Below, one piece after another: positions 20,807-40,273 of a DNA stretch of 64,000 bases (position 1 is its first letter; each line of letters starts with the position of its first letter). This DNA comes from Thioalkalivibrio sulfidiphilus HL-EbGr7 (lineage in GTDB: Bacteria > Pseudomonadota > Gammaproteobacteria > Ectothiorhodospirales > Ectothiorhodospiraceae), in contig NC_011901.1 in NCBI RefSeq assembly GCF_000021985.1, positions 2,552,501-2,616,500 on the forward strand. Reading direction: 5' to 3'. Both the position numbers and the translations under genes were made by a program. Below the pieces are notes generated by a model. That model was not told the origin of the DNA. It saw only the letters and a program-made list of their open reading frames with translations, and ran no database searches.

Positions 20807-21140
20807 GTGTCCTGAGTCAGAGATTCGTTACATTTCAGCGGGCCTGTACGGGATGCGCGGCAAGGCGCACGAGCGAAGGACGGGCAGGCCCATTCGAGCG
20901 AGAGCAACGCGGCCGAGCGCCCGTACAGGCCCGCCCGCAGGGAGCCCCGCACAAGACCCAATGCGGCGTTGCGGACTCCATCCATGGAGTCCGCCCTTCG
21001 GGCCGGCCTGCGGCCATCCCCATCTGCTCCCGACAGATGGGTGCGGGCCTTGCCAAGGGCTTGCCATTGCCTGCGGCCCGCGCCTTGCCTTGGGTCTTGT
21101 GCGGGGCTCTGAAATGCAACGAATCTCTGACTCAGGACAC
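20807..21140. mobile_element. MITE-like element with 32-bp terminal inverted repeats, flanked by TA
   Basis: The ends 20807-20838 and 21109-21140 are inverted repeats that match at 31 of 32 positions (GTGTCCTGAGTCAGAGATTC at each outer end). TA occurs on both sides (20805-20806 and 21141-21142), the target duplication expected of the IS630/Tc1-mariner superfamily. At 334 bp it has no transposase-sized frame. Long internal complementary arms (CGGGCCTGTACGG/CCGTACAGGCCCG and AGCCCCGCACAAGACCCA/TGGGTCTTGTGCGGGGCT with one copy next to an end) show a nested hairpin structure. It is inserted at the trailer end of the CRISPR array and abuts a truncated repeat. Confidence 0.82.
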
Positions 21141-21141
21141 T

Positions 21142-24100
21142 ATGCCGCGGATGACATGGCTGCGGCAGAGAGATCGGCCAAGAGATTCGGCGCTTCAATG
21201 AGGCCGCGGCTAAATGCCGCGGATGACGGGCGCCGGTGATCGGCACGCTAATCGTCTCGTTGTCGCTTCAATGAGGCCGCGGCTAAATGCCGCGGATGAC
21301 AAGGACACCGAGGGCTGCCCCGTCACTGCCACACTGGCTTCAATGAGGCCGCGGCTAAATGCCGCGGATGACTTTGCAAAAATGCAACCCGGTGACAGTG
21401 TGTTCATTGCTTCAATGAGGCCGCGGCTAAATGCCGCGGATGACAAGAGCTTTGATGAAGTCGTGATCCACCCCCGGTGTGCTTCAATGAGGCCGCGGCT
21501 AAATGCCGCGGATGACTGATCGACGTGGACACGCTGGACCACCTTGTGGTGCGCTTCAATGAGGCCGCGGCTAAATGCCGCGGATGACACCGGTCTGCCC
21601 GTGCGTAACGAGCGCCGTAACAGGCTTCAATGAGGCCGCGGCTAAATGCCGCGGATGACGCGGCGCCGAACTGGAGGCCATGGGCATTGTCCCCGTGGCT
21701 TCAATGAGGCCGCGGCTAAATGCCGCGGATGACTCAGCAGCGGAACCAGCGTGGAACCGCTGTCCTCGCGCTTCAATGAGGCCGCGGCTAAATGCCGCGG
21801 ATGACGGGTCGTCGTCAGTAGTGCTCATCTCGATGCCGGCGCGCTTCAATGAGGCCGCGGCTAAATGCCGCGGATGACGGCCGCAAGCCCGCACAGCAGG
21901 ACCGGCCGGAACCTGCTTCAATGAGGCCGCGGCTAAATGCCGCGGATGACGTACCGCTGCTCTGGATCGGCCCCGAGTCGGCCAATGCTTCAATGAGGCC
22001 GCGGCTAAATGCCGCGGATGACGTAGTGCCTGTCATGACGTTTGCGACGGGCGCACAAGCTTCAATGAGGCCGCGGCTAAATGCCGCGGATGACAAGGAT
22101 GCGGCACGCATTGACTGGCTGGCAGATCCGCTTCAATGAGGCCGCGGCTAAATGCCGCGGATGACAGTGACGGTGAGTTCGTGGACGTGGGCGGTTCTGT
22201 CGCTTCAATGAGGCCGCGGCTAAATGCCGCGGATGACGCTGCCGGGGGAGTGACGCCGATGCAGACACTGGAGCTGCTTCAATGAGGCCGCGGCTAAATG
22301 CCGCGGATGACGCTGCTGTCGGAGATGCTGCGCACCGTGGCCTTTCAGGCTTCAATGAGGCCGCGGCTAAATGCCGCGGATGACGCCTTGGTTTTCGCCG
22401 GCGGCTTGGCCTCGACGATCGCTTCAATGAGGCCGCGGCTAAATGCCGCGGATGACTCCAGCGCCGGGTCGGCACCGACAGCTTGTTGCGCAGGCTTCAA
22501 TGAGGCCGCGGCTAAATGCCGCGGATGACCCGGTGAGACGAATGTCAAGAAAGCCGTGGCTGAGGCGCTTCAATGAGGCCGCGGCTAAATGCCGCGGATG
22601 ACGTCGTTCTTCTCGATGTCGCCTTCCCAGCATTCTCGCTTCAATGAGGCCGCGGCTAAATGCCGCGGATGACACCCGTTCGCCGGTTGTCAGAATCCGC
22701 CCCCGGTGCGGGCTTCAATGAGGCCGCGGCTAAATGCCGCGGATGACGCGCTGGGCCCGGGTCTATGGCCCTGTCTGGTGCCCGCTTCAATGAGGCCGCG
22801 GCTAAATGCCGCGGATGACAAGGCTGTTGAAACATCGCAGTCGTTAGGATCACTGCGCTTCAATGAGGCCGCGGCTAAATGCCGCGGATGACATGAGTAG
22901 TCAGTCCCTTGATAGATGAAACGGCGAAGAGCTTCAATGAGGCCGCGGCTAAATGCCGCGGATGACGTGTCATCGTCCAGGAACTGGTCGTCGTTGGTGG
23001 TGCCGCTTCAATGAGGCCGCGGCTAAATGCCGCGGATGACTCCAGGCAATCCGCCACCAGGACCATGGCAGCGCGGCTTCAATGAGGCCGCGGCTAAATG
23101 CCGCGGATGACGGGAGGAGCCCGGGGCAGGTGTCCCGGGTGGACGAGCTTCAATGAGGCCGCGGCTAAATGCCGCGGATGACGCCGGGCGCAGGGGGTTC
23201 CCCGACTACATGCTGAAGCTTCAATGAGGCCGCGGCTAAATGCCGCGGATGACACTCCCGCGGCATCAAGTACATCGACAAGGCTATCGGGCTTCAATGA
23301 GGCCGCGGCTAAATGCCGCGGATGACCTGTCCTGGAAGTCGCTGGGCTTTGCAGCACCCTGGGTGCTTCAATGAGGCCGCGGCTAAATGCCGCGGATGAC
23401 GACACATGAAGAACCGTGCCGCAATGCTGGCAGGCTTCGCTTCAATGAGGCCGCGGCTAAATGCCGCGGATGACGGCGCTCCAGCAGGCTGAAGCCGCCC
23501 AGCAGCAGGCCGCTTCAATGAGGCCGCGGCTAAATGCCGCGGATGACCTACCAGCACGGCCCGGCTGGCTTTCAGGCTGCTGCAGTGCTTCAATGAGGCC
23601 GCGGCTAAATGCCGCGGATGACAAGTTCATCAACGTGGTGGCCTTCTCCGGCTTCGGGCTTCAATGAGGCCGCGGCTAAATGCCGCGGATGACGAGGCCC
23701 GAATGGTTACTTCTTGGCGAGATCTCCAGCTTCAATGAGGCCGCGGCTAAATGCCGCGGATGACATAACACCGATGTTCAGGTATTTTCCGGCAACTCCA
23801 AGCTTCAATGAGGCCGCGGCTAAATGCCGCGGATGACATGGGATGCCCTCGCGCATGAGATCAAAGCCAGGCTTGCTTCAATGAGGCCGCGGCTAAATGC
23901 CGCGGATGACATCTGGGTGCCAGGTGAGGGCCTGACCAAGCTGTGAGGCTTCAATGAGGCCGCGGCTAAATGCCGCGGATGACGTTGTGAGACGCTGATA
24001 AAAACCAGTCAAGGCTGTTGCTTCAATGAGGCCGCGGCTAAATGCCGCGGATGACGGAAAAGCACGGCGCTGAAGGCCGGCGGATCCTCGCGCTTCAATG

Positions 24101-25730
24101 AGGCCGCGGCTAAATGCCGCGGATGACTAACCGCGCCCAGGAGGAGCTGTACGGGACTGCATGGGGCTTCAATGAGGCCGCGGCTAAATGCCGCGGATGA
24201 CACCTGATCCGCGGGGTGATCGTGGCTCCGCCAGGGGAGCTTCAATGAGGCCGCGGCTAAATGCCGCGGATGACACGCCCGCCCCCTCAACCGGTGAGAC
24301 GAATGTCAAGGCTTCAATGAGGCCGCGGCTAAATGCCGCGGATGACGCCTTTGAGGGCGTCACCGAAGCCAGCGTCCTGGTGCTTCAATGAGGCCGCGGC
24401 TAAATGCCGCGGATGACCTCCCATGGGTGGGAATCTCCCCCGTCTCCTGTGGCAGGCTTCAATGAGGCCGCGGCTAAATGCCGCGGATGACTGCGGGTAT
24501 TCGCTCGAAATCAACTCATGGTTCAGAGGCTTCAATGAGGCCGCGGCTAAATGCCGCGGATGACGCTGCTGGTCACGCCGTGGATCGTTTAAGGGGGTGT
24601 TGCTTCAATGAGGCCGCGGCTAAATGCCGCGGATGACACCCCGCCGCCTCCCCCTGGCGCATTGCCGTCTCGATGCAGCTTCAATGAGGCCGCGGCTAAA
24701 TGCCGCGGATGACGCCGTCTGGCGATGATTCCGGCCGGTACCTTCAACCAGCTTCAATGAGGCCGCGGCTAAATGCCGCGGATGACGGATATGGATCGGA
24801 GGACGTGGGCCTTTGCCCAGCTCGCTTCAATGAGGCCGCGGCTAAATGCCGCGGATGACGGAAGAGTACCCGCACTCGGCGGCTAGGGAGCTCTGGGCTT
24901 CAATGAGGCCGCGGCTAAATGCCGCGGATGACTGCCACCGTGCCCTCCCGCGCGAGGCCTTCCGCGACAGCTTCAATGAGGCCGCGGCTAAATGCCGCGG
25001 ATGACGCAGCTTCGCCCACTGGTGCTTGGGCTGGGCAAGCTGGGCTTCAATGAGGCCGCGGCTAAATGCCGCGGATGACCTCATGAAAGAAGACCAGGAC
25101 CAATGGCAACGAAGCAGCTTCAATGAGGCCGCGGCTAAATGCCGCGGATGACTCCATCTCCGTGAACAGGGCATCGGGCACGTCCCAGGGCTTCAATGAG
25201 GCCGCGGCTAAATGCCGCGGATGACACCCCGGGCGCGTCCACGAACAGCTGGCACCTCACTGAGCTTCAATGAGGCCGCGGCTAAATGCCGCGGATGACC
25301 GCGAGCTCCTTGCGCTCGGCCGGGGTCAGGTGGCGCTGCTTCAATGAGGCCGCGGCTAAATGCCGCGGATGACGCGCCTATCCGGCGGCCGAGCTCAACC
25401 TGTCCCCTGCTTCAATGAGGCCGCGGCTAAATGCCGCGGATGACGGTACCCTGCCAGACGCGGTTCACCTGCGTGGAGGGGCTTCAATGAGGCCGCGGCT
25501 AAATGCCGCGGATGACCACGCATGTCATTCTTTCCTGTATCTGTAGGTTTCGCTTCAATGAGGCCGCGGCTAAATGCCGCGGATGACGCGGGGAACTTGA
25601 CCTGAACGCCCTGGCGCGCCGCGCTTCAATGAGGCCGCGGCTAAATGCCGCGGATGACATCCACTGGCGCGCCGCCCGCTCAGCCATGGAATAAGCTTCA
25701 ATGAGGCCGCGGCTAAATGCCGCGGATGAC
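21142..25730 (-). CRISPR. Type I-G CRISPR array, 63 full repeats and one truncated repeat
   Basis: I counted 63 copies of a 36-base repeat, the first at 21192-21227 and the last at 25695-25730, with 71-76 bp spacing. A 14-base partial repeat lies at 21142-21155, giving 63 spacers of 35-40 bases. On the plus strand the unit begins GCTTCAATGAGG and ends GCCGCGGATGAC; positions 13-19 and 25-31 form a 7-bp stem CCGCGGC/GCCGCGG around TAAAT. The likely transcript is the minus strand, so crRNAs would carry a 5' handle ATTGAAGC, and the leader is next to cas2. All full repeats looked identical. Spacers beginning at 22530 and 24275 share 20 bases. Confidence 0.98.
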
Positions 25731-25964: not shown

Positions 25965-26255
25965 TTAAATGATCACCGGTTCCCGAGCGACCGGTTCGAA
26001 ATCCTTGCCCAGGCTTACAACCCTGGGCGCAACTTTCTCGGCAATACCTACGTCGAGGATCACGATGTGATCCTCATCATGATGAATCATGCCGTCCAGC
26101 AGCGCGATCAATTCTGCATGGCGCTGCCGGCTCATTCGACACTGGAACACTGATAATTGCAGCCACTCACCGTAACCACGCATGAGTCTGAACACACGGC
26201 GCCAGCGCTTCTGATCACTGATGTCGTAGGTGACGATGTAGAGATGTTCGTCCAT
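25965..26255 (-). CDS. cas2: CRISPR-associated endoribonuclease-fold protein Cas2
   Basis: Cas2 forms the structural core of the Cas1-Cas2 spacer integrase. The 96-residue ferredoxin-fold protein has MDEHLYIVTYDISDQKRWRRVF with the conserved Asp11, and GYGEWLQLSVFQCRMS, typical of type I-G and related Cas2. ATG 26255 follows the cas4-cas1 stop by 5 bp; a GTG at 26264 overlapping that stop is an alternative. It is the last cas gene before the leader. Confidence 0.95.
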   Translation of the reverse strand: MDEHLYIVTYDISDQKRWRRVFRLMRGYGEWLQLSVFQCRMSRQRHAELIALLDGMIHHDEDHIVILDVGIAEKVAPRVVSLGKDFEPVAREPVII

Positions 26256-26260
26256 GGGTA

Positions 26261-27973
26261 TCACCGGGTCGTGAAGTTCGGATAGTCGGGCAGCTCACCC
26301 AACAGATAGCGCGCGAGCAGCCTGCCCTGGACCTCCAGCAGCCGGCGGTAGCTGAGCCGGTATCCGAACAGGGGATGGGTGATCTCATGACTCATGCGCC
26401 GCTCGAAGGTGGCGATGAAGCGCTTGCGTCCGTCGTTGGTCAGCGCGACGCTGCCGGCCACGCTCTGGAAATCCGATGGACGCACTTCACCGTTGTTGAT
26501 CGCCTGAATGACACTGGAATCCGCGATCAAGGGTCTGAACGGCTCCATCATGTCCAATGCCAGCGCCGGACGGCCGTAACGGGGCTGATGATAGAAGCCT
26601 CGATACGGATCAAGGCCCACTGCCGAGAGCGAAGCCGTCCAGGACCGGGTCAGAAGGGCGTAGGCGTAGGACAACAGGGCGTTGACCGGGTCCGTGGGCG
26701 GACGGCGGTTGCGCGTGGTGAAGTCGAATGTCAGTTCGGGCCCGGCATCGCTGTGCTTCAACAGCCGGGCGAAGGCACCGAAGTAGCGGGAGGCGGCCGC
26801 CCCTTCGATGCCAAGCAGCTCCTGAAGATTGGATGCACGACGGGATTTCCTGATATCCACCTGCAGGCCGTCGAGCAGATCCACGGGCTTGTCCTCGCCT
26901 TTCCAGTTGCGCCGCAACAGCGTGCGGCAATTCTGGATCTTGGCCTCCACCAGGCCCTTGGCGATGTGCAGACACTGGTGCTCCTCGAAGCTCGCCTTGT
27001 ACTGGGCAGTCCGGATCTCCACGTTCTTGTGGCCGGTGCCCATGGTGTGGCCCATGAACCAGCCGCCATGGGAATGCCAACTGACGGGGATCTCGCGCTG
27101 CATGAGTTCCTGAAGGCACGGCGTGGTGATATAGACATTGCCCATGACGATCACCTGGGAGACGTCGATGAGGCGCACCGACTGTACTTTTTCGTCATCC
27201 ACCGTGACCTCCAAAGTCTCGCCCCGCTTGGCCAGCTTGGCGCCCCGGGCCTGGATATAGAGTGGCAGGGCCTCATCCCGGGCGACGGCCAGGGGCCTTG
27301 GCGGCGTCTGTTCCCGGCGGAGGTAGTTGACCTCGTCGGGCAGGCAGATACCTACCAGCGAACAGCGCGGACACTTGGGACTGTCCTCCAGGGGTGCGGG
27401 GATCTGTCCACCCGCGGCGATGAATCGTAGTCCGTTGATGGCGTTGAGCGTCAACCGGCGTAATTCCTCGTCGAAGGGCACACGTACACGCTCGCGGGAT
27501 TCGGTGAAGTACAACTCCCCTTCGTCGCAGGTATAGCCGCATTCCTCCAGAATCATGCCCTGCACGCACAACTGGACCCTTTCGGGCTCGTAGGCGCCGC
27601 GGGCCACATGAGGCCGCTTGCCACGCTTGTAGTCGACGGGTGTGACATGGTCACCCTCGCCTTCCAGCAGATCCATGCGGGCGATGAGGCCCAGGCGGTT
27701 GGAGGACAGGGTTATGGAGCGGGCATGGTAGCGTTCACCCGCCTCGGCGACGCCGGGGGCCGGAAGATCTCCAGAACCTTTGTCCACCCGACGGTGACGG
27801 TAGCGTCCATCCACGGTATCCGCGGACTCGGACCACTCCCCCTGCACCCATTCCAGATACGCCAGACGGGGGCAGTACTGGTATTCGTTGACCATGCGCG
27901 CCGGGAGCAAGGGCATATCGCCGGATAGCTCCGGAAAAGGGAGCGGCAGTTCGGGCTGCTGCTGATCGTCCAT
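26261..27973 (-). CDS. cas4-cas1: Cas4-Cas1 fusion protein
   Basis: The fusion of the PAM-selecting Cas4 nuclease and the Cas1 integrase is a hallmark of type I-G. Residues 1-225 are Cas4: Cys34 in YQYCPRLAYLEW, the PD-(D/E)XK part VDYKRGKRP (Asp114, Lys116), EPERVQLCVQG, and the Fe-S cysteines in CPRCSLVGIC (201, 204, 210). From about 236 to 570 is Cas1 with Glu390 (GIEGAAASRYF), His462 (FYHQPRYGRPAL) and Asp474/Glu477 (LDMMEPFRPL). ATG 27973 has GGGAGG 9 bp upstream; the frame extends to GTG 28003. Its promoter region overlaps the operator of a divergent antitoxin gene. The effector genes lie beyond the toxin-antitoxin cluster. Confidence 0.97.
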   Translation of the reverse strand: MDDQQQPELPLPFPELSGDMPLLPARMVNEYQYCPRLAYLEWVQGEWSESADTVDGRYRHRRVDKGSGDLPAPGVAEAGERYHARSITLSSNRLGLIARMDLLEGEGDHVTPVDYKRGKRPHVARGAYEPERVQLCVQGMILEECGYTCDEGELYFTESRERVRVPFDEELRRLTLNAINGLRFIAAGGQIPAPLEDSPKCPRCSLVGICLPDEVNYLRREQTPPRPLAVARDEALPLYIQARGAKLAKRGETLEVTVDDEKVQSVRLIDVSQVIVMGNVYITTPCLQELMQREIPVSWHSHGGWFMGHTMGTGHKNVEIRTAQYKASFEEHQCLHIAKGLVEAKIQNCRTLLRRNWKGEDKPVDLLDGLQVDIRKSRRASNLQELLGIEGAAASRYFGAFARLLKHSDAGPELTFDFTTRNRRPPTDPVNALLSYAYALLTRSWTASLSAVGLDPYRGFYHQPRYGRPALALDMMEPFRPLIADSSVIQAINNGEVRPSDFQSVAGSVALTNDGRKRFIATFERRMSHEITHPLFGYRLSYRRLLEVQGRLLARYLLGELPDYPNFTTR

Positions 27974-28015
27974 TGCGGCTGGCCTCCCACTTGCGGATAG
28001 CACGAAACAGAGCTA

Positions 28016-28064: not shown

Positions 28065-28382
28065 ATGCCTGCCATCAGTCTCCGCCTTCCGGATGAGATC
28101 GAGGCCCGCCTCGCCGAAGAGGCCCGTATTGAAGGCCGCCCACGCTCCGAAGTGGTGCGCGAGGCGATCGCGGAATACATCACCCGACGGGAGCGCGAGC
28201 GGTTCATGGCGGAGCTCGTAGCCGAAGCGCAAGCCTATTACCGTGACCCCGAGGCATGTCGCGAAGCCCTTGAACTGGCGGAGGAAGCGATCGTCACTGG
28301 CAACGAGGCCCTCGACATTGCCGAGGGCCGCCGACCCGGCGAACCGTGGCCGGAGGAAACCGGTGAGAAGTGGTGGCGCTGA
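28065..28382 (+). CDS. Ribbon-helix-helix antitoxin
   Basis: A 105-residue protein whose N-terminus is an RHH DNA-binding domain (PAISLRLPDEIEARLAEEARIEGRPRSEVVREAIAEYI split as strand, helix, helix at residues 2-42). An acidic, Trp-containing C-terminal tail (about 85-105) would bind the toxin. The MazF-like gene follows with a 1-bp overlap (TGATG), the standard antitoxin-toxin order. It lies on the plus strand, opposite to all cas genes, and separates cas4-cas1 from the effector genes. Upstream tandem CGTAAT sites are the probable operator. Confidence 0.9.
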   Translation: MPAISLRLPDEIEARLAEEARIEGRPRSEVVREAIAEYITRRERERFMAELVAEAQAYYRDPEACREALELAEEAIVTGNEALDIAEGRRPGEPWPEETGEKWWR

Positions 28383-28723
28383 TGCGCCGGGGGGAAGTGT
28401 GGGTGGCCCAGCTTAACCCGAACCGGGGGAGCGAAATCGGCAAGATCCGCCCGGTGCTCGTTATCCAGGCGGACGAGCTTACGGCCGTCGGTGACAACCC
28501 GATCATCGTGCTTCCGATCACCACTCAGATATATCCCTCCTTCAAGCGCTGGCGCATCTCCCTGCCCGCCCGGGACCGTCTTCTCAAAGATGGCCAGATC
28601 ATCGTGGACCAACCACGAGCCATCGATCGCAGCCGCTTCGGCGAAGGGCCCCTGACCACGCTGACGACGGATGAACTGGCCAGCGTCGAAAAGAGCCTCA
28701 AGGCTGTGATGGGGATGTGGTGA
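28382..28723 (+). CDS. MazF/PemK-family mRNA endonuclease toxin
   Basis: A 113-residue protein with the PemK/MazF signature: MRRGEVWVAQLNPNRGSEIGKIRPVLVIQ near the N-terminus, PIIVLPITTQI, DGQIIVDQPRAIDRSRF and a C-terminal helix with LASVEKSLKAVMG. The basic loop and the Thr/Ser region of the active site are present, so it looks functional. The start is ATG 28382, one base overlapping the antitoxin stop. It converges on the PIN toxin gene at 28749. Confidence 0.92.
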   Translation: MRRGEVWVAQLNPNRGSEIGKIRPVLVIQADELTAVGDNPIIVLPITTQIYPSFKRWRISLPARDRLLKDGQIIVDQPRAIDRSRFGEGPLTTLTTDELASVEKSLKAVMGMW

Positions 28724-28748: not shown

Positions 28749-29129
28749 TTAACCCATCACCTTACGGCGGTAGTGCACACCCTCAATGCCTTCAAAGTCA
28801 CCGTCCTGTGTCCACAGTCGAGCCTGATATCGCCTGGCGGTGGCGAGCATGACGGAGTCCGCCATCGGCAGCTTATGGGTCACAGCGAGTTTCGCCGCAC
28901 TGAGAGAAATATCCGCAGTGAGGTCCACGACGGCTCCCTGCTGCATCATGGCCACTGCCTGCAAGGCGGCATTCTCTTCCCGCTGCTGAAGTATTCGTTT
29001 GAACACCTCAAACAACGCGAGGGTCGGCACGAGCAAGTTGGCCGTGTCGGTGATGGCGGGCACGAAGAACCCGGCGTTGTCACCATCGGCGAAATACTCC
29101 AGCCAACCACAGGAATCCACCAGATTCAC
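28749..29129 (-). CDS. PIN-domain (VapC-like) toxin
   Basis: A 126-residue ribonuclease of the PIN family, with the first acidic residue in MNLVDSCGWLEYF, the middle EVFKRILQQ with Glu, and the C-terminal acidic pair in LPMADSVMLATARRY...LWTQDGDFEGI. All four expected acidic positions appear to be present. The start is GTG 29129, overlapping the antitoxin stop (GTGA). It forms a pair with the AbrB-type antitoxin upstream and lies on the same strand as the cas effector genes, downstream of the ERCC4 nuclease gene. Confidence 0.9.
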   Translation of the reverse strand: MNLVDSCGWLEYFADGDNAGFFVPAITDTANLLVPTLALFEVFKRILQQREENAALQAVAMMQQGAVVDLTADISLSAAKLAVTHKLPMADSVMLATARRYQARLWTQDGDFEGIEGVHYRRKVMG

Positions 29130-29332
29130 ACCCGATCCCCATCCCGTGGAACGTCGGTTTCAATACCTCTTAGAAAACCGCGCATCTCCGTGATATCCCG
29201 AACAGGAATCAACTCGGCCCGTCCTTCATAAAGCACCACCTGGAGCTTCTGCCCCGGGCGGATCCCCATGGCCTGGCGCATCTCCCGAGGCATAACAATC
29301 TGATATTTCTTGGAAACAGTCACAGTCGTCAT
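29126..29332 (-). CDS. AbrB/MazE-type (SpoVT fold) antitoxin
   Basis: A 68-residue protein with the swapped-hairpin DNA-binding fold: MTTVTVSKKYQIVMPREMRQAMGI followed by RPGQKLQVVLYEGRAELIPV. The C-terminal part (ITEMRGFLRGIETDVPRD) would contact the PIN toxin. The start is ATG 29332; a longer open frame upstream is not supported. The TGA stop overlaps the PIN start. It lies 55 bp after the ERCC4 nuclease gene, so it is either read through from the cas operon or has its own promoter in the gap. Confidence 0.9.
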   Translation of the reverse strand: MTTVTVSKKYQIVMPREMRQAMGIRPGQKLQVVLYEGRAELIPVRDITEMRGFLRGIETDVPRDGDRV

Positions 29333-29387: not shown

Positions 29388-30092
29388 TCAAACGAGACAA
29401 CGCCGACCGCCATCCACCGCATAAGGGCCCCTGCTCTCCTCCACGGCCCAGCGGATACAGCGAGCAGTTCGTTGCCCAATCCCATCCACCTCCTTCAACT
29501 CCGCGTCACCCGCCCGGATGACGGCCTCGACGGAACCGAACCGGTCGAGCAGCCGTGCCGCACGCTCGGCACCGACCCGGGGCAGGCTCTGGAGGATGTG
29601 GGATTGCAGGGCCCGCTTGCCCTTGGGTCGGGCACCGCGGCGCGGCAGCGCACCGCCGGCCACGGTGCGGCCCTGACGGGCAATGGAGAGAAACGTCCCG
29701 ACGGTCTCCCCCGCCGAACGAGTGCGCAGGACCGGCAGGCCGATAAACAGACTCACCGTGACCAGGGCCCCCTGAACCGCCTCCCAGCGCATGGCGCTGC
29801 CTTCGATGTCCCTTGCCGTGCCTTCCAGTATCAGGGCCGGGCGCCACTGTTCGACCGCGGCCAGCCTCAGGGCCTGATCGAACAGCCGTCCTGATTTGAT
29901 CGACTCGATGAGGTCGGGGAGCGTCTTGCGCTCGACGAGGAAGCGGTTGTCGATCAAATAGTCGCCGCAATCGAGCCGGGCGAAGGTCGCGGCGACCCCA
30001 GCCGATGCGCGCAGCGCGGCCACCACCGGGCTCCTGGATTCGCGGTGGTCGATGGTGATGGCGATCGGCCGTTTGTTGAAATCGTGATCCAT
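29388..30092 (-). CDS. ERCC4/XPF-type nuclease with HhH domain, in the cas operon
   Basis: The 234-residue protein is an ERCC4-domain nuclease with C-terminal helix-hairpin-helix motifs, the architecture of XPF/Mus81/Hef without a helicase. The full active-site motif is visible: Asp15 in ITIDHRES, GDY at 43-45, then VERK at 53-56 and Asp60 (GDx(n)ERKx3D). Tandem HhH motifs are near 167-190 and 198-212 (VDGIGQRTARCIRWAV). Relatives cut branched or 3'-flap DNA. ATG 30092 lies 4 bp after the csb2 stop, so it is almost certainly translated with the Cascade genes. I do not know it as a standard type I-G component; a role in processing DNA after Cas3 cleavage or during spacer capture is inference. 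Confidence 0.9.
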   Translation of the reverse strand: MDHDFNKRPIAITIDHRESRSPVVAALRASAGVAATFARLDCGDYLIDNRFLVERKTLPDLIESIKSGRLFDQALRLAAVEQWRPALILEGTARDIEGSAMRWEAVQGALVTVSLFIGLPVLRTRSAGETVGTFLSIARQGRTVAGGALPRRGARPKGKRALQSHILQSLPRVGAERAARLLDRFGSVEAVIRAGDAELKEVDGIGQRTARCIRWAVEESRGPYAVDGGRRCLV

Positions 30093-30096
30093 GCCT

Positions 30097-31647
30097 CTAC
30101 TCCGAGTCATGCGACGGCGCAAACAGGCCCAGGCCGTAATGACATCCAAACCCCAAGGCAAGCGGCCCCGAGACCGGCTGCGGGAACGTCAGGCGAACGA
30201 AGGCGCCGTGGGTGTCTGGTTGCGGCAACCCACGCTTGGTGCGGAAACGATGGAACTGAACCGGTCGGCAGCTTCTGCCGCTGCCGACCGGGATCTCCGG
30301 CAAGAGGTCCACCTGACTAGGGATGGGCAGCCCGCGCTCTCGGCATTCCCGGCGAATCTGCTCAACGTAGCCGAAGCCTTTCTTGGCATGCCAGGGATGC
30401 AAATAGGGGGTGCGCGTGACCCAAACAGTGGCATGTCCGAGTGCCGGAATCGCGGACTGGATCGCCTGCCAGTGACGCTCATCCTCTCGACCGCCGACGG
30501 ATTCCAGTGCGACCTGCCATTGACTGCCATCCTGCCCCCGCAGGATGGGCAGATCCTCGAAGACCTTGAGCATCTCCTGCGGGAAACCGGCCTCCGCATG
30601 GACAATCACGTGATCGATGCGTCCCTTGTCATTTCCCTCCGGGAGAAAGAAGGCGTGGGCATGACGGTTATCCGGCGGCAAGCCGTGTCCGGACAGCTGC
30701 GCGGGAATGTCGGACTCACCGAACCGGCGTTTCGCCCGGGACATCAGTGCCGCGCGCATCCGTTCCGCCACACGCACCGTGTCCTCGACCCTGGGCAGGG
30801 GCCTGCCGGCCAGCGCGAAACGGGCCGTCGTAATCCGGCTGGTACGATGCCACTCGGGCACGCGGCGGCGGCGCACGCCCAAGGCCCCCTGGGGCCGCTG
30901 ATAGAGCACCTCCGTGGCGCCGGGCGCCAGACTCCAGCCGGCGCGCTGAATGTCACCGGTCTCCAGGCGCAAGGCATCGATCAGACGTTCCGGCAAGGTG
31001 GCCAGGACCGAGAGCCGTTTCTGTTTGGCCAGTTTTTCCAGCCTGAGGTCCTCAACGGTCTGTTGTTGCCATTGGGCATAGTCAGCTGCCGATCTTGGCA
31101 CGATCAATCTGACCGGTTCGCTGGTCTCGCCCGTGGCCGGATTCACAGCCAGGTTGCCCGGACGGCAATTGGCATCCTCAGGGTTCCAGCCCTCCAGCCG
31201 ACGGCACTCGATCCAGCTCTCGACGCGACCGAAGAAATTCAGATCCCGCATAAGCGCGTCCAGGGATCCCAGAAGCTCCGGGTCCGGGTCCAGGTCGGGC
31301 CAGGCGATGATCAGCTCTTCATCAGGATCGATTCGAAGGAAGGCGTCGAACACCAGGACCGACTTATCGGCCCGTCCCTCGCGCACCGGCATGTAGTGGC
31401 GCGTATGGGCATGGACCGCATCCGGCAGACGATAGACAGGCGCAACACCGGAGAGGGCATTGACGAGCGCCTCCAGGCGGGCCTCTGGAAACTCGCCTGG
31501 ATCATGCTTGCGGTGCCAGGTGGCGATCAGGGCGCGCAGGAAACGCCACGGGGACGGCGGCCATTCCACGTCGGCCTCGTTTACATGCCGCCCCCAGGGT
31601 GTGGCATGAAAACGTCCGGCTGTGAACCGGCAGGCAACGGCAAGCAT
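30097..31647 (-). CDS. csb2: Type I-G Cas5-Cas6 protein Csb2
   Basis: In type I-G, Csb2 combines Cas5 and Cas6 roles: it binds the crRNA 5' end and cleaves pre-crRNA. The 516-residue protein starts MLAVACRFTAGRFHATPWGRHVNE, a RAMP-like beta strand with the family's conserved region, followed by WPPSPWRFLRALI. The C-terminus has the glycine-rich loop SGPLALGFGCHYGLGLF typical of Cas6-like RAMP folds. Histidines in LPPDNRHAHAFFLP are candidate catalytic residues. It starts 3 bp after csb1 and precedes the ERCC4 nuclease by 4 bp. Confidence 0.93.
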   Translation of the reverse strand: MLAVACRFTAGRFHATPWGRHVNEADVEWPPSPWRFLRALIATWHRKHDPGEFPEARLEALVNALSGVAPVYRLPDAVHAHTRHYMPVREGRADKSVLVFDAFLRIDPDEELIIAWPDLDPDPELLGSLDALMRDLNFFGRVESWIECRRLEGWNPEDANCRPGNLAVNPATGETSEPVRLIVPRSAADYAQWQQQTVEDLRLEKLAKQKRLSVLATLPERLIDALRLETGDIQRAGWSLAPGATEVLYQRPQGALGVRRRRVPEWHRTSRITTARFALAGRPLPRVEDTVRVAERMRAALMSRAKRRFGESDIPAQLSGHGLPPDNRHAHAFFLPEGNDKGRIDHVIVHAEAGFPQEMLKVFEDLPILRGQDGSQWQVALESVGGREDERHWQAIQSAIPALGHATVWVTRTPYLHPWHAKKGFGYVEQIRRECRERGLPIPSQVDLLPEIPVGSGRSCRPVQFHRFRTKRGLPQPDTHGAFVRLTFPQPVSGPLALGFGCHYGLGLFAPSHDSE

Positions 31648-31650
31648 GGT

Positions 31651-32634
<984 letters not shown>

Positions 32635-34797
32635 TCAGGACGCATCCTGGGTGGCGGGTTCGTCGGACTTGTGATCAGCGAGGCGTTTGATAAAGCCTTT
32701 GATGACACGGATTTCCACCGGGATCATGAGCGCCGCCAGCAGGCGCCCGCCATCCGGGTAGGGCGGCGTCAGGCGCCAGCCGGCATCCGCCAGCCCGGAG
32801 GCCCGGCGCCTGCGGCGAGCTAGGTCCACGGCACGCCCCACACCAGCCGGACCGGCCCGCAGCAGCCGAGGCAAGGCCGGCGGGAGCGGCAGGCATCCAT
32901 CGGGTGTCAGAACACCGGCCTCGCGGAGCTGGGCATCCGGCACGAACAGCGGTTTGAGCAAGGCGTAGATCATGGGCAGGGATGATGCCTCCGAGGCACC
33001 GCGTTGCCGGAGGGGTAAACGGGCCGGCAGCCGCGCGCACGCCAGACCTGCCATCAGCTCGGCGATGCGGCGCTCGTCAGCGTCGCCTGCCAAAAAGGCC
33101 GCCACCGCTCCCTCATCGGCGGGACAACGGCCGGACAGGGGTTTGTCGTTGAGATCCGTTCTGCTGGCGGTCAGCAGGCGCCGTTGCAGCACCTGGGCGA
33201 GATTGTCCGAGAGATTGCCCTGCCCCCAGACGGCCAGGCGGCTTTCCGGTGCCCAAACATTGCGCTTCACGGGATCGATGGGGGCCAGATGTACGCCCAT
33301 GGGCAGGCCATCGTCGAGACCGGCCAGGGCTGCCGCCACCCGGAATTCGTGGCTGTCATCCCGGGCGGCCTCGACCCAGTGCGCGTCAAGCCGGGGCACG
33401 GGCCGCACTTGCTCGCGCAGGGAGGGACTGAGCGCCAGGTAGAACTGTACCTCGCCCAGGACCTTGAGCACCTCCTGCACCCTACGGGGATCCGCCACAC
33501 GGACCAGATCGAACAGGGCGTCGTCCAGACGGTGGGCAAGCCCCTGCAAGCGCGCCGGTGCATGTGTGGAACGGGCCGCACGGCGGAAACGGCGCAACCA
33601 ATCACCGCGCTCCAACTGGTCGATCAGGTCGGCCTTGGGGTTTCGATGCACATGGAATCGGTTCAACGGCGTGGCCAGATAGGCCTTTCCGGAACGCATC
33701 ATAAACGCGTAACGCTGGAAGGCACGTACGCCCCGATCTGTCCCCAGCTTGGCCACGGCACGGGCAAAGTCCAAGCCGTCCCGGGGAAGCCGCCCATTGA
33801 GGGTGACACGCCCCTCGCCCAGTAACACTCGCAATTCCGGCAGCGAGGCCGGACGTTCCCACAGGGGCATCCAGATCTCGGCCCGGGCCGGCCTTTCATC
33901 CCCCAGGGCAACAGCGCCGCTGCCACCACCACTGGGGCGTACCGTGAAGGGATAACTCAAGGCCGAAGGATCGGCGCTCTCCAAACGGCGGGTGGCAGTC
34001 GCTGCGAACAGCAGCGCGCCCTCAAGCATCAACACGTAATCCCAGATATTGACCTGCGCGCCGCTGTCAAAGCCGGTGGAACTGTTGGGCCCACCCGCGG
34101 CACCGGGGGAAAATTGGCCGATCGCGAGGGCCGTCATACCGGGGACCGGACGAGCGAACAAGGCAGACTCCAACTTGTTCCCGACATCCCCCTGCGCCTT
34201 GCCCGTGACGGGATCGAACATCTCCAGCAGCCGCTGCATGTAGTTGCTGGTGAAATCGAGACGGCCGTCGTTACCCCCCGTACCCAGCAAGGGCGGGTAG
34301 TCGGGCTTGTCGTCGGTCAGCAGGACTGCGGCATCCAGCCACGGCAGGAACTCGTCATCCAGTGTCGCCCGCAAGCGGGCCAAGAGCGCGCGCTTGTCCA
34401 ACTCGGCAGGCTTTTCGGTCAGTTTCAAGTGTTCAAGCGCATCGGCCATGACCTCCGCCGTATCACGGAACGGGCGCCAGCGCTCGGCCTGGGTGGTTAT
34501 GATTTTCTCAAGCGTGCTCCAGGCCGTTTCATTGCCCTTGCGATAGAACCCGCTGCCGCCGTTCCAGGGCGACAGCATGGGTGTGGGGCGATAGTCCTCG
34601 ATAAAGAAGCGCCGCAGATCGTTGTCATCGAGACGGGTACGGAGCATGAAGCACTCATCCTGCCACCAGCCCTTCGCCGTTGCGTCCACCTGCTCGCAAA
34701 CAAGCCGCAGGACACCCAGCGCCTTGAGATAGGCGGCCAGAGGCGTAGGAGCACAACCACGCAGGACGATCTCATTTATATGCATGTCCTTATCCAT
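32635..34797 (-). CDS. csx17: Type I-G Cas8-like large subunit Csx17
   Basis: Csx17 (also Cas8u2/Cas8g) is the large Cascade subunit that recognises the PAM. The 720-residue protein begins MDKDMHINEIVLRGCAPTPLAAYLKALGVLRLV, the characteristic start of the family, and contains GGNDGRLDFTSNYMQRLLE and AAGGPNSSTGFDSGAQVNIWDY. ATG 34797 overlaps the end of cas3 by 8 bp and has AGGAG 7 bp upstream; the longer open frame is a read into cas3. C-terminal AGPAGVGRAVDLARRRRRASGL is also family-like. Length is normal for the family. Confidence 0.93.
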   Translation of the reverse strand: MDKDMHINEIVLRGCAPTPLAAYLKALGVLRLVCEQVDATAKGWWQDECFMLRTRLDDNDLRRFFIEDYRPTPMLSPWNGGSGFYRKGNETAWSTLEKIITTQAERWRPFRDTAEVMADALEHLKLTEKPAELDKRALLARLRATLDDEFLPWLDAAVLLTDDKPDYPPLLGTGGNDGRLDFTSNYMQRLLEMFDPVTGKAQGDVGNKLESALFARPVPGMTALAIGQFSPGAAGGPNSSTGFDSGAQVNIWDYVLMLEGALLFAATATRRLESADPSALSYPFTVRPSGGGSGAVALGDERPARAEIWMPLWERPASLPELRVLLGEGRVTLNGRLPRDGLDFARAVAKLGTDRGVRAFQRYAFMMRSGKAYLATPLNRFHVHRNPKADLIDQLERGDWLRRFRRAARSTHAPARLQGLAHRLDDALFDLVRVADPRRVQEVLKVLGEVQFYLALSPSLREQVRPVPRLDAHWVEAARDDSHEFRVAAALAGLDDGLPMGVHLAPIDPVKRNVWAPESRLAVWGQGNLSDNLAQVLQRRLLTASRTDLNDKPLSGRCPADEGAVAAFLAGDADERRIAELMAGLACARLPARLPLRQRGASEASSLPMIYALLKPLFVPDAQLREAGVLTPDGCLPLPPALPRLLRAGPAGVGRAVDLARRRRRASGLADAGWRLTPPYPDGGRLLAALMIPVEIRVIKGFIKRLADHKSDEPATQDAS

Positions 34798-37276
34798 GGC
34801 CATTCTCCTGTGACGGCTCATCGTCGGTATGCTCGGCGCCCTCTGCTTGCTCAAGCCGACTCGCCCGCCAGTCGGCCAGCCGCACCAGGGTTTCCAGCCA
34901 GGCCAGTCTGAACGGGCCGTGTTCAGATAAGAGGCTCTGGGTGCGCGCGCTCCATGACGGGCCCTGGGGTCCGTCGCCCAGGCGCATGAGATCCAGGCGC
35001 AAGACCGTGGGCGGCACCGACTCGCCTTCATCGATGGGCACCGGCGGCAACGCGTCGCCATCCCACACCCCGCGCGCGAACAGGAGATCGGGATCACGCG
35101 GCTGTTGCTCACGTTGCAGAGCACGCAGGCCCATGCGCACCTTGCCGTGATGGGCGGCGATCAGATAGGCGATCAGGTTGGATTCGGGTTCTTCGGGGTG
35201 ATGTTCCAACCAGGCCAGCATGGAGGCCAACTCGTGGCGAAAGTGCGGGCGCTTCTCCTGTAAGCCGTCGCGCTCGACGAAATACTCGGGACGCGCCCTG
35301 GCCATGCCGTCGGATTTGGCCCAGAGACCCGCGCGCCGCGCCTGCGGATCTTGCATGGCGGCGCGTAGCATGTTCTGAAAGGCCTCGTGGGCCTTGCCCA
35401 CGTCATGCCAACGGGCGGCTCGGATGACCGAGCGGCTGAAGACCTCATCAAGTTCCAATGCCCGGCACAGCTCGCCGGCCGCCTGACCCACATCTCGCAA
35501 ATGCATATCCAAAGGCACGGCCCGTCGCAAGAGACTGCGCACATCCGACGAATAGGCCTCGGGCGCGGGGAGATCCGCCGGAACGGGGATCACCTCGACA
35601 TCCCCTTTATGCGCGGCATCGAAGCCCAGCACGGGGTCGTACCCGCCCGCCTCGGCATCGAGCAGTAGCGTCATGCCGGGTCGAATGGCATCGCTCACCG
35701 ATTGCCATGTGCCCATGACCGCATCCCACGCCCAAACCCGGCCGGCCTTGCGCTTGTCGCGGTAGGACTTGATCTGGCTCAGCGACGCACGGCACAACTC
35801 CCGAGACAAGGGCCTCGGGATGTCATCGAGCCGGGACGCTGTTTTTTGATCCCGGTTCAAAGTACGCCAGAAGACCTGCACATCGGTCTCTCGGACATCG
35901 CGGATATAAGGGGAGACATCCAGGTCGAAACCGGACAGGTCCGGGTCGGTGTCGAACAACTGCAACAGATCCTTGCGACGCAACACCATCGCCTCGGGTG
36001 CTGTCTCCTTGGTGGGCGGCAGATCCACCGGACTGGCGGATGTCAGGGCGCGCAGCCTTTCACGGCTTGGGGCAAGCTGTTCGGCGTCATAGGGGACCGA
36101 CACGGCATCGTCCAGATCGATCCAGTAGATTCGCGCGCCCCCATCGCCGTTGTACTCCCCATAGCGGTTGCAACGGCCAAAGCGCTGCACCATGGAGGAC
36201 CAGGGCGCCAGTTCGGTGAACAGCGTACGCGACGTCATGTCCACGCCCGCCTCCACCGCCTGGGTGGCAACCACGATACGCCCTTCGGGCGGCACCTGCG
36301 TGCCCAGGGCCTGCTCCAGCAGGCGTCTTTCCCGGGCACGGAATCGCGCATGGACGAGCAACGGATCCCGGTCTTCCGTGCGCTCCTTGAGCGCACGCGC
36401 CAGCCCCTGGGCCCGCTCCACCGTGTTCAGCACCACCAGCGTGGTCGTGCCCGGCACATGGGCCTGGATCACCCGCTCGGCAAGCCCGGTCACGTAGGCT
36501 TGAACGAACGTCTTAGAGTCCCCTTCCAGGCTGACCGGGAGACACTCCAGATGCTTGACCGCCTCCCGACGTGCCCGCACCGCGTCCATTGTGCATTCCT
36601 GCGCATCGAGAGCGTGGCGCGCAAGCTTATCCATCCAGGGGCGCATGTCCACGGTGCCGAGCCAGCCAGGATTCAGGGTCGCAGACACCCACAGGCTGCG
36701 ACTCTGACGCACACAACCGAGGTCACGGCGCAAGGCCTCCAGTTGCGCTGATGTCTGCAGACCGGGTCCCATGAGCTGAACCTCGTCGAACACCCACAGG
36801 GCATCGTTGTGCAGTAGGCCGAAGTGCATGGGCCATTGATACCGGCTCATTCCGTAACCACGCATCAACGCACGGGAAAGCAGCATGTCCTGGGTGCCCA
36901 CCAGGATCATGTCCTCCTCGGGGTGCTCCGCCCAGGTCGCGGCCCGAACATCGTCCTCCCCGCCCATGAGCAAATGAACCGACACCTTGCCCTCGCCGGG
37001 TAAGCCGTGCAGATTCAGTCGCTGAAGCCAATGCTCGATATTGCGGCAGGTCTGCTCCACCAGCACGCGCATGGGCAGACACCAGATCAGGCGCCGAGGG
37101 GTGGCCTCATCGCGCTGCTCACGGCGCTTGTAGAGCCAGGCCAGCGTGACTGCGGCGGTCTTGCCCAACCCCGTGGGGACATCGAGGGTATCCGGCCATG
37201 GAGCCTCGGCAAGCCTGGCCTGATATGGGAAGGGCTCGAAGCCAGCCGCCTGATTGAAAAAATCAGCGTATTTCAT
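34790..37276 (-). CDS. cas3: Type I-G Cas3 helicase-nuclease with C-terminal HD domain
   Basis: Cas3 unwinds and degrades DNA recognised by Cascade. The 828-residue protein has the SF2 helicase first: PTGLGKT (Walker A, 34-40), FDEVQLMGP (DExx box, about 163), and VLNTVERAQGLARAL with VVATQAVEAGVDM and QRFGRCNRYGE in the second RecA fold. The HD nuclease is at the C-terminus (ARWHDVGKAHEAFQ, about residue 622, and later ELASMLAW and YLIAAHHGKVRMG). This helicase-then-HD order is the one seen in type I-G. ATG 37276. It is the first cas gene of the effector operon. Confidence 0.96.
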   Translation of the reverse strand: MKYADFFNQAAGFEPFPYQARLAEAPWPDTLDVPTGLGKTAAVTLAWLYKRREQRDEATPRRLIWCLPMRVLVEQTCRNIEHWLQRLNLHGLPGEGKVSVHLLMGGEDDVRAATWAEHPEEDMILVGTQDMLLSRALMRGYGMSRYQWPMHFGLLHNDALWVFDEVQLMGPGLQTSAQLEALRRDLGCVRQSRSLWVSATLNPGWLGTVDMRPWMDKLARHALDAQECTMDAVRARREAVKHLECLPVSLEGDSKTFVQAYVTGLAERVIQAHVPGTTTLVVLNTVERAQGLARALKERTEDRDPLLVHARFRARERRLLEQALGTQVPPEGRIVVATQAVEAGVDMTSRTLFTELAPWSSMVQRFGRCNRYGEYNGDGGARIYWIDLDDAVSVPYDAEQLAPSRERLRALTSASPVDLPPTKETAPEAMVLRRKDLLQLFDTDPDLSGFDLDVSPYIRDVRETDVQVFWRTLNRDQKTASRLDDIPRPLSRELCRASLSQIKSYRDKRKAGRVWAWDAVMGTWQSVSDAIRPGMTLLLDAEAGGYDPVLGFDAAHKGDVEVIPVPADLPAPEAYSSDVRSLLRRAVPLDMHLRDVGQAAGELCRALELDEVFSRSVIRAARWHDVGKAHEAFQNMLRAAMQDPQARRAGLWAKSDGMARARPEYFVERDGLQEKRPHFRHELASMLAWLEHHPEEPESNLIAYLIAAHHGKVRMGLRALQREQQPRDPDLLFARGVWDGDALPPVPIDEGESVPPTVLRLDLMRLGDGPQGPSWSARTQSLLSEHGPFRLAWLETLVRLADWRASRLEQAEGAEHTDDEPSQENGHG

Positions 37277-37386
37277 CGGCAATGCCTGCTCACTTAATCT
37301 GATTGCTTTGTACCAGCCCCGGTGGCTCACAGATTGAGCCTGTGCCTGTCTTTTTTCCGTGGCAGCGGTGATCGACGGACAGCCGC

Positions 37387-38165: not shown

Positions 38166-39122
38166 TCAAGACAGCCCCTGGCGCACAAGGCAGCATTTCT
38201 TGTACTTCCTTCCGCTGCCGCACGGGCAGGGGTCGTTGCGACCTGTCTTCGGTTCGGACCGAATGTATGGCTCGACATCGGTCCACACCGACGGACCAAG
38301 AAGGTCCTGTCGTCGGCGACGTCGTCGAGCCTCTTCCGCCCAGCGAAGCTGGCGCTTACTGATCGCCGCCGGGCGGTAGAACGCCCACGGGTCCCGGAAC
38401 CGCTCCCAGTCCGGTGCGTCCGCGCCGGCCCCGTAGGCTCGTTCGATATCCCGCTGGTCGAAATGCTTACCGAAGCCTTCCTGGCGTCGCTCCAGGGACT
38501 CGATCAAGGGGCGGTGCCGCTCCCTGGGGAAGTCCAGGAGCGTGCTGCACAGGCACAGACGGGTACTCCAGTCCTGCTCCTCATCCGCCACGATCCCGGC
38601 CAGCCAGTCGATGGCCTCCTCGAGCCGGGCCGCGTCCTCCCGGGCATGCAGGCTGAGGACCGTGTCCGCCGCGTTGGTGCGTGTATAGAGATCGTAACCA
38701 CAGTGCTCGGCGAGCACGCGCAAGGGCTCCGCGAGGTCTTCAGGCTTGTTGGCAAACAGGGTAGGCCAATAGCCTGTCAGCCACTCCATCATGTTCTCGT
38801 CGCCGGTCGCTTCCAGTCGATGCATGAGATCGATCAGAAACGTCCCGGCCTCCCGGGACGGCAGGCGTCCGGCAATCATGGCGGCGTGGTAGGAAAGCCA
38901 CCACAGTCCGTCTTCGCCTTCCTCGATGGGATAAGGCTCGCCCATGGCTTCAAGTAACGCTTCGAGTATCCCGTCGCCATGGGCCACGCAGGCATCGATG
39001 AGATTCAGCGGAACACGGTCCTGGTCGCACACGAGGAGGGCGACGAGCCGAGGCGGATCGAGAGCGGCAAGGGTTTCGTCCTCGTAGGTGGGCAGTTCTA
39101 CGTAATTGAGTTCGGCGGTCAT
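38166..39122 (-). CDS. SEC-C motif protein (DUF1186-like)
   Basis: A 318-residue protein made of helical repeats (about 10-250) resembling the DUF1186 group, ending in a SEC-C zinc motif [17 protein letters not shown] (CxCx8CC). SEC-C motifs bind zinc and, in SecA, SecB or ribosomes. An Arg-rich stretch (RRRRRRQ) precedes it. The start ATG 39122 ([14 protein letters not shown]) is preferred; a longer frame exists. It lies between the AbrB/PIN pair and the WYL regulator. SEC-C proteins recur near defence genes, but its function here is unknown. Confidence 0.82.
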
Positions 39123-39201
39123 GGGTACTCCATTCATTGGCATGAAATGCAAGGCACTTGGCATGGCCGGAAAGCGGTGTCCGTCCCATGGGGCAACCGG
39201 A

Positions 39202-40176
39202 TCAATCCCCAGGCCCTCGATAACGCTCCCAGGCCGCCCGCAGACGCGCGGCCACCTGCCGACGCAGGGATGCCGGCGCGGCCACCTCCACATCCGGCCC
39301 GTACTTGAGGATGTCCATCAGCAGCTCCCTCGGGTCGGAATAAGGCACCTGGAGCTCGTAAACGTCGCCGTCCCAACGTCCGATCTGGTCGGGGTGCCAA
39401 TTCTCGTCCGCCACCCAGCGGGCGCGTTCGGAGGTAAAGCGCAACACGGCCCAGTGCTCGACCGTGCCGGTGAAGATGCCGAAGCTTCCGCCCAGGTAGC
39501 GGTCCAGGAGGCTGGCGTCCACGGGTCGCAGAGGACCCTCGACAGGTTCCGCCTGGCGAATTCTGTCCAGGGAAAAGGTGCGCAGGGAATTGGCCTGATC
39601 ACACCAGGCGATCAGGTACCAGTTGTCACGGTAATGCGTGAGACGGTAAGGATGCACTCGGCGCTGGGAAAAGATATCGCGCTCGCGCCCGTGGTATTCG
39701 ATGTGAAGCGGCATGGATTCGAGCACAGCCGCCGAGACCTGTCCGAACAACCGGTCGTCCACCCGTCTCGGGGCCATGGGCTGGAGGCGCACCCGCTGAC
39801 TCACCGTTTGCGAGGAATGACCGCTCTCCCCCAGCAGTTTCCGGATACGCCCCTTGAGGGGTCCAAGACTTGGGCCCAGCAGACCGGGCTGCACGGATTC
39901 GAGTAGTTGTTCCGTGGCAAGCAGGGCATACAGTTCACTGGCGTTGAACCACAGGCCAGGGAGTTCGAACTCCGGGGCGTTCGGATCATAGCCGTAACCG
40001 TTGAGGTTGCGATCATAGGGCAACGGCGCCCCCATGAAATCGCGCATGTAGGCGAGATCCCGCACCACCGTGGCCCGGGACGCGCCCAATTCCTCCATGA
40101 GCCGGGCCAGCGGGACAGGCCTGCGGCTGCCCTTGAGCAGCCCGTGAATCCGGTAGATGCGCTCCGCGCGGTTCAT
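39202..40176 (-). CDS. WYL-domain transcriptional regulator
   Basis: A 324-residue protein with an N-terminal DeoR-type winged helix ([29 protein letters not shown], about 1-60) and a WYL domain with the motif [24 protein letters not shown] (about 200-225), then a C-terminal WCX region. WYL domains bind ligands, probably nucleic acid, and regulators of this type control several CRISPR-Cas and other defence loci. The start is ATG 40176; the extension to 40212 is not required. It is 79 bp upstream of the SEC-C gene on the same strand. Confidence 0.92.
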
Positions 40177-40273
40177 AGGCCTTGCTATCCCTCTGATTTT
40201 ATCCTCGGCCATTCCCTGCGAAGTTTGAGGATACCACCGATGGCAACGGGGAGGCCCGTGGCTGGTGCTGCTT

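Follow-up and report, generated by a model that had tools for sequence, protein, structure and literature searches.

An XPF-family nuclease gene in the type I-G CRISPR-Cas locus of Thioalkalivibrio sulfidiphilus, a possible optional accessory of the adaptation genes

The type I-G CRISPR-Cas locus of Thioalkalivibrio sulfidiphilus HL-EbGr7 carries an intact gene for a stand-alone ERCC4-(HhH)2 nuclease of the XPF/Hef type, at 29388-30092 on the minus strand of the window (the whole stretch of 64,000 nucleotides analysed here, to which all coordinates refer). As a tentative first choice, we take its product to be a captured nuclease that serves a few I-G loci as an optional adaptation-side accessory and is unneeded for interference; a general repair nuclease that was captured by the locus is only slightly less likely. 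The gene and a guessed role in prespacer processing are already known for this locus. The type I-G system of this strain was the subject of Shangguan et al. 2022, whose Fig. 1 legend gives five genes between csb2 and cas4-1, comprising two toxin-antitoxin (TA) systems and one xpf-like gene, which the paper terms uncharacterised and guesses to encode a 3'-flap endonuclease for prespacer processing (PMC9638904). The gene order and the 36-nt repeat there are the same as in the window, with no sequence difference, and the published xpf-like gene (WP_012638991.1) is almost certainly the one at 29388-30092. Added here are the distribution of the gene, its tie to the adaptation genes, and its apparent natural loss via effector exchange. 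Our search of the literature on CRISPR-linked ERCC4 found nothing besides this paper.

The reading frame is open throughout and encodes 234 amino acids. Pfam model ERCC4 (PF02732) matches residues 14-132 (E=1.3e-20; 74 bits against a cut-off of 24), and HHH_5 and HHH_2 match residues 167-214 above cut-off (E~1e-8). The AlphaFold2 model (pLDDT 89) has five helices at 159-217, after the nuclease domain, and its top fold match is Aeropyrum pernix XPF, to which phmmer also aligns the protein end to end among solved structures (2bgw, E=9e-27, residues 8-214). The active-site motif is complete (D15-x-R17-E18...G43-D44-Y...V-E54-R55-K56-T-L-P-D60), with D15, R17, E18, D44, E54, R55, K56, and D60 invariant across family relatives. 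Both marks of the XPF/Mus81/Hef (ERCC4) superfamily, a GDX(n)ERKX3D active site and a tandem HhH, are present, and assignment to the ERCC4 family is far beyond chance. The preliminary description, made from the sequence, had claimed an intact XPF/Hef-type nuclease with HhH motifs that starts 4 bp past csb2 on the same strand as cas3-csx17-csb1-csb2. Profiles, motif, and fold bear out the first claim and the coordinates agree with the second: the csb2 stop codon (TAG) ends at 30097, four nucleotides (AGGC) follow, and the ercc4 ATG is at 30092, with GGAG upstream. Between the window and the copy in the conspecific genome G004, which is also intact (92.6% identity), dN/dS for ercc4 is 0.22, near the 0.19-0.20 of cas3 and csx17, so the gene is under purifying selection.

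Aeropyrum pernix XPF (2bgw, 2bhn) is likewise a short ERCC4 plus (HhH)2 protein with no helicase; it differs in being an archaeal repair enzyme, shares 30-35% identity, and falls outside the bacterial clade in the tree. The nuclease domain of Pyrococcus furiosus Hef (1j24) superposes on the model at 2.0 A (TM 0.88 by target length), and Hef and FANCM have the catalytic motif in common with the window protein. In Hef, however, an SF2 helicase forms part of the same polypeptide, whereas the 234-residue protein has no helicase-domain match and scores 153 bits against the NCBIfam Hef model, whose cut-off is 610. It also stays below the cut-off of the archaeal Xpf equivalog NF040956 (86.4 bits against 300), and no PADLOC-DB family matches it at E<=0.01.

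Known players in the trimming of prespacer ends are Cas4, Cas1, and DnaQ-like and ExoT-like exonucleases. Next to these, a flap nuclease of the XPF type tied to Cas4/1-Cas2 would, if true, represent another class of trimming enzyme. The protein is predicted to be a catalytically competent bacterial endonuclease of the XPF/Hef family that would form a homodimer and cleave flaps and branched DNA on their 3' side, both the dimerisation and the substrate being presumed. It probably belongs to an otherwise stand-alone nuclease lineage that a few I-G loci have captured into the stretch separating their effector genes from their adaptation genes. There it would most likely trim 3' single-stranded flaps of prespacers, or resolve flapped or half-integrated intermediates, for Cas4/1-Cas2, a putative adaptation role first proposed in PMC9638904.

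The surrounding locus is a full type I-G system. Its minus-strand genes are cas3g (34790-37330; TIGR02621, E=3.6e-247, start uncertain), csx17/cas8g (32635-34797; TIGR04113, E=1.9e-264, start picked at an ATG overlapping cas3), csb1/cas7g (31651-32601; PF09617, E=7e-45, and TIGR02570), csb2, a cas5/6 fusion of type I-G (30097-31647; NCBIfam TIGR02165, E=3.9e-62), a cas4/cas1 fusion (26261-28003; NF049935 cas4g_cas1g, E=9.7e-254), and cas2 (25965-26264; Pfam CRISPR_Cas2 PF09827, E=6e-17). The CRISPR array, to which no strand is assigned, spans 21120-25730 (ends approximate), with 63 copies of a 36-nt repeat and spacers of 36.6 +/- 1.1 nt. The cas3, csx17, csb1, csb2, and cas4/1 products each score above the cut-off of their own type I-G NCBIfam model.

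The interval between csb2 and cas4/1 is where toxin-antitoxin cargo gathers in I-G loci. Here it contains a MazE/AbrB-like antitoxin (29126-29332, minus strand; PF04014, E=2e-9) with its partner, a VapC-like PIN-domain toxin (28749-29129, minus strand; PF01850, E=1.3e-11), and an RHH (CopG-like) antitoxin (28065-28382, plus strand; PF01402, E=3.4e-8) with a PemK/MazF-like toxin (28370-28723, plus strand; PF02452, E=8e-23). The MazE-like/PIN pair (28749-29332), between ercc4 and the PemK gene, is not in the conspecific strain (L042), and its antitoxin is missing at this place in strain G004; the difference from L042 is a recent insertion or loss, which altered the last residues of the nuclease as well. 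The RHH-PemK/MazF pair (28065-28723), divergent from cas4/1, has counterparts at this position in further I-G loci, with pairs of this type beside cas4/1 in L037, L042, L043, L226, L234, L246, L247, and L272, a diverged pair in L059, and the RHH gene only in L231 and L232. Among I-G loci it is much commoner than ERCC4, and it may protect the locus as an addiction module.

With csb1 (PF09617) as the I-G marker, the system was found in 6 of 398 sampled Pseudomonadota genomes, 31 of 194 Chromatiaceae, 13 of 195 Verrucomicrobiota, and 5 of the 23 genomes in the window's own family group. ERCC4 was sought by profile or tblastn in the csb1 flanks, up to ~10 kb on each side where contigs allowed. Among 53 other I-G loci (5 from Pseudomonadota, 34 from Chromatiaceae, 12 from Verrucomicrobiota, and 2 of the window's family), none has an intact linked copy in these flanks, several of which are cut by contig ends; one congener retains a truncated remnant. 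In line with the preliminary description, ERCC4 belongs neither to the core nor to the standard gene set of type I-G. The 21 of 23 family genomes outside the species pair, the congener G002 included, are mostly without I-G. ERCC4 proteins of the family at 27-32% identity (G006-G036) were considered as kin of the window gene and rejected, as they sit in a plasmid clade.

A scan of ~85,000 species genomes returned 80 ERCC4 loci, ~30 of them at 43% identity or more; those below are archaeal XPF/Hef and plasmid proteins. The nearest relative is that of Thioalkalivibrio sulfidiphilus ALJ17. Only three close relatives are linked to I-G genes, a conspecific copy (L055), one from a betaproteobacterial MAG (L056), and one from Hydrocarboniphaga (L059). 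L056 has the order PIN gene, ERCC4, cas4/1, cas2, and array. L059 has csx17, csb1, csb2, toxin-antitoxin-like genes, a SEC-C gene, ERCC4, further genes, cas4/1, cas2, and array. In a maximum-likelihood tree the window protein groups with those of G004, L056, L059, L057, and L060 in one clade (support 100/99), in which L060, from Verrucomicrobiota, is unlinked and L057 lies on a contig too short for linkage to be judged. Plasmid copies and the archaeal XPF/Hef proteins fall apart from this clade. The link to I-G proposed in the preliminary description thus extends past one genome in so far as one subclade occurs in the loci of three diverged lineages, upstream of cas4/1, although most relatives are unlinked.

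Within the linked loci, ERCC4 diverges in step with one part of the system. Between the window and L059, identity is 59% for ERCC4, 67% for Cas4/1, and 66% for Cas2, against 30% for csb1, 26% for csb2, and 27% for csx17, in alignments that cover most of each protein. For L056 compared with the window it is 62% for ERCC4, 59% for Cas4/1, and 65% for Cas2; no effector gene occurs in the 2.4 kb upstream on the L056 contig. Every linked copy precedes cas4/1 and shares its strand. By this position, together with a divergence matching that of Cas4/1-Cas2, ERCC4 goes with the adaptation genes and not with the effector. Only in this species does the gene follow csb2 at 4 nt, since ERCC4 abuts a SEC-C gene in L059 and a PIN gene in L056. 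The preliminary description had taken the coupling to csb2 as the sign of a dedicated nuclease. That argument is not supported: the junction is not conserved, ERCC4 tracks the adaptation genes, and the effector was reconstituted in E. coli without the gene (PMC9638904).

The congener G002 provides a natural loss for comparison. Only the last ~80 codons of ercc4 are left there. DNA alignment with the window shows the 3' end shared at high identity from ~codon 170 on, and the sequence upstream of that point, which is unrelated to the window ercc4, leads into a csb2 that is itself diverged; the breakpoint within ercc4 lies at L043:9886-10150 in G002, compared with 29388-30100 in the window. Identity to the window is 92% for Cas4/1 and 90% for Cas2, against 45% for csb2, 37% for csx17, 67% for csb1, and 57% for cas3. 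The simplest reading of the alignment is that the effector cassette cas3-csx17-csb1-csb2 was swapped, with a crossover inside ercc4 that deleted the nuclease domain, and the breakpoint appears to reflect modular effector replacement in type I-G. The other cas genes of G002 are still open and its array has 90 repeats. Taken as a footprint of the nuclease, spacer length shows no difference between G002 (36.64 +/- 1.15), the window (36.63 +/- 1.14), and loci without linked ERCC4 (36.0-37.3). The unchanged lengths in G002 argue against a required role of ERCC4 in spacer length, although many of its spacers may predate the loss.

The reading as an optional adaptation accessory draws on the invariant catalytic residues, the XPF fold, the low dN/dS, and the three diverged linked lineages within one well-supported clade, and it would also account for the parallel divergence of ERCC4 and Cas4/1-Cas2 and the constant placement upstream of cas4/1 on the same strand. 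Against it stand the 0 of 53 other loci, the mostly unlinked relatives, and the G002 locus, which persists with its cas genes intact and its spacer lengths unchanged. The toxin-antitoxin character of the interval also counts against it, as does the Cas4/1 tree, where the linked loci do not form one clade, so that either capture or loss has to have happened more than once; by this tree, a single capture with strict co-inheritance of ERCC4 is not shown. In vitro, moreover, type I-G Cas4/1-Cas2 manages unaided, the Methanosarcina barkeri Cas4/1 trimming both prespacer ends (PMC10504553). Since Cas4/1 alone trims both ends, help from ERCC4 to adaptation would be optional at best. The stronger version, in which this XPF subclade is a dedicated I-G adaptation accessory, kept with cas4/1-cas2 through effector swaps and processing prespacers or integration intermediates as a structure-specific flap nuclease, is somewhat less likely than not. 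The comparative data sharpen the published guess: an effect would be expected on adaptation and none on interference, with ERCC4 expected to be dispensable.

The main alternative, a serious contender in spite of what speaks against it, is a general stand-alone repair or recombination nuclease, horizontally mobile, that rides as a co-transcribed passenger in the cargo interval of some I-G loci, acts on cellular branched DNA, and has no dedicated CRISPR role. It fits the distribution of the family, since 27 of the 30 close relatives (at least 43% identity) lie beside housekeeping genes, including carbonic anhydrase, argininosuccinate synthase, glyoxalase, and RNase T, with no I-G gene in the flanks examined (some contigs are short), and 16 of 31 Chromatiaceae carriers are without csb1. 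The preliminary description had held that homologues scattered without cas genes would break the link; such scatter is largely what the relatives show, but not the nearest subclade. Large plasmids, too, encode related ERCC4-HhH proteins: 144 plasmid records have ERCC4, all below 60% identity (best 38.6%), with no cas genes listed near it in the six regions opened and no csb1 on plasmids. These proteins, such as those of Azospira pAZI09 and Polaromonas JS666 plasmid 1, are likewise ERCC4-HhH proteins of ~220 aa; they form a separate clade and, unlike the window gene, neighbour plasmid genes such as the PRTRC system. In phage records, tblastn found no ERCC4 homologue. Survival of the G002 locus without the nuclease domain, and an interval rich in toxin-antitoxin genes, also suit a passenger. 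Random insertion, however, would hardly place the same subclade at comparable places in three diverged I-G loci, and ERCC4 divergence tracks Cas4/1-Cas2. If ercc4 is a passenger after all, it is a warning against inferring function from a 4-nt operon junction.

It is improbable that unlinked ERCC4 copies serve an I-G system elsewhere in the genome as partners in trans. Of the scan genomes with ERCC4, 15 of 34 have csb1 anywhere, mostly unlinked, against the 6 of 398 in the Pseudomonadota sample, and within Chromatiaceae csb1 occurs in 15 of 31 ERCC4 carriers and 16 of 163 non-carriers (Fisher p=2e-6). ERCC4 and csb1 both go with large genomes there, however, and a logistic model with log genome size lowers the odds ratio to 3.3 (p=0.023, without phylogeny correction); among cas1-positive Chromatiaceae genomes it is 3.1 (p=0.043, again without phylogeny correction). 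Verrucomicrobiota gave no replication, with csb1 in 2 of 9 ERCC4 carriers (at least 42% identity) where ~0.6 would be expected, one of the two being the sample's centre genome, and csb1 is patchy inside ERCC4 subclades. The unlinked association is weak once genome size is counted and stays unproven; an initial candidate of strong co-occurrence in trans was downgraded, since much of it can be put down to genome size and it failed to recur in Verrucomicrobiota.

Least likely, and very improbable, is the first suggestion of the preliminary description, an interference accessory cutting R-loop, flap, or Cas3-made branched DNA: ercc4 does end the cas3-csx17-csb1-csb2 run, 4 nt past csb2, but the effectors of L059 and G002 are highly diverged, the L056 ERCC4 stands directly before cas4/1, and csb2, cas7, cas8g, cas3, and an array sufficed in E. 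coli to rebuild interference with plasmids and with phage P1 (PMC9638904), so that the xpf-like gene was unneeded for it there.

Some further features of these regions deserve mention. Matches labelled cas3 in L089-L132 were rejected, being the helicase part of archaeal Hef and not Cas3. In Chromatiaceae (e.g. L152-L179), a stand-alone chromosomal ERCC4-HhH nuclease at 50-57% identity, unusual for bacteria, is found in 31 of 194 genomes, often with neighbours in common; the partly shared neighbours suggest that these copies are stable chromosomal residents. Upstream of cas3 in the window lie genes for a SEC-C protein (38166-39293, minus strand) and an HTH-WYL regulator (39202-40212, minus strand). 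The I-G loci L037 and L043 likewise have a relative of the WYL gene, from cluster c7, beside them, and in L059 and L057 a SEC-C gene immediately precedes ERCC4.
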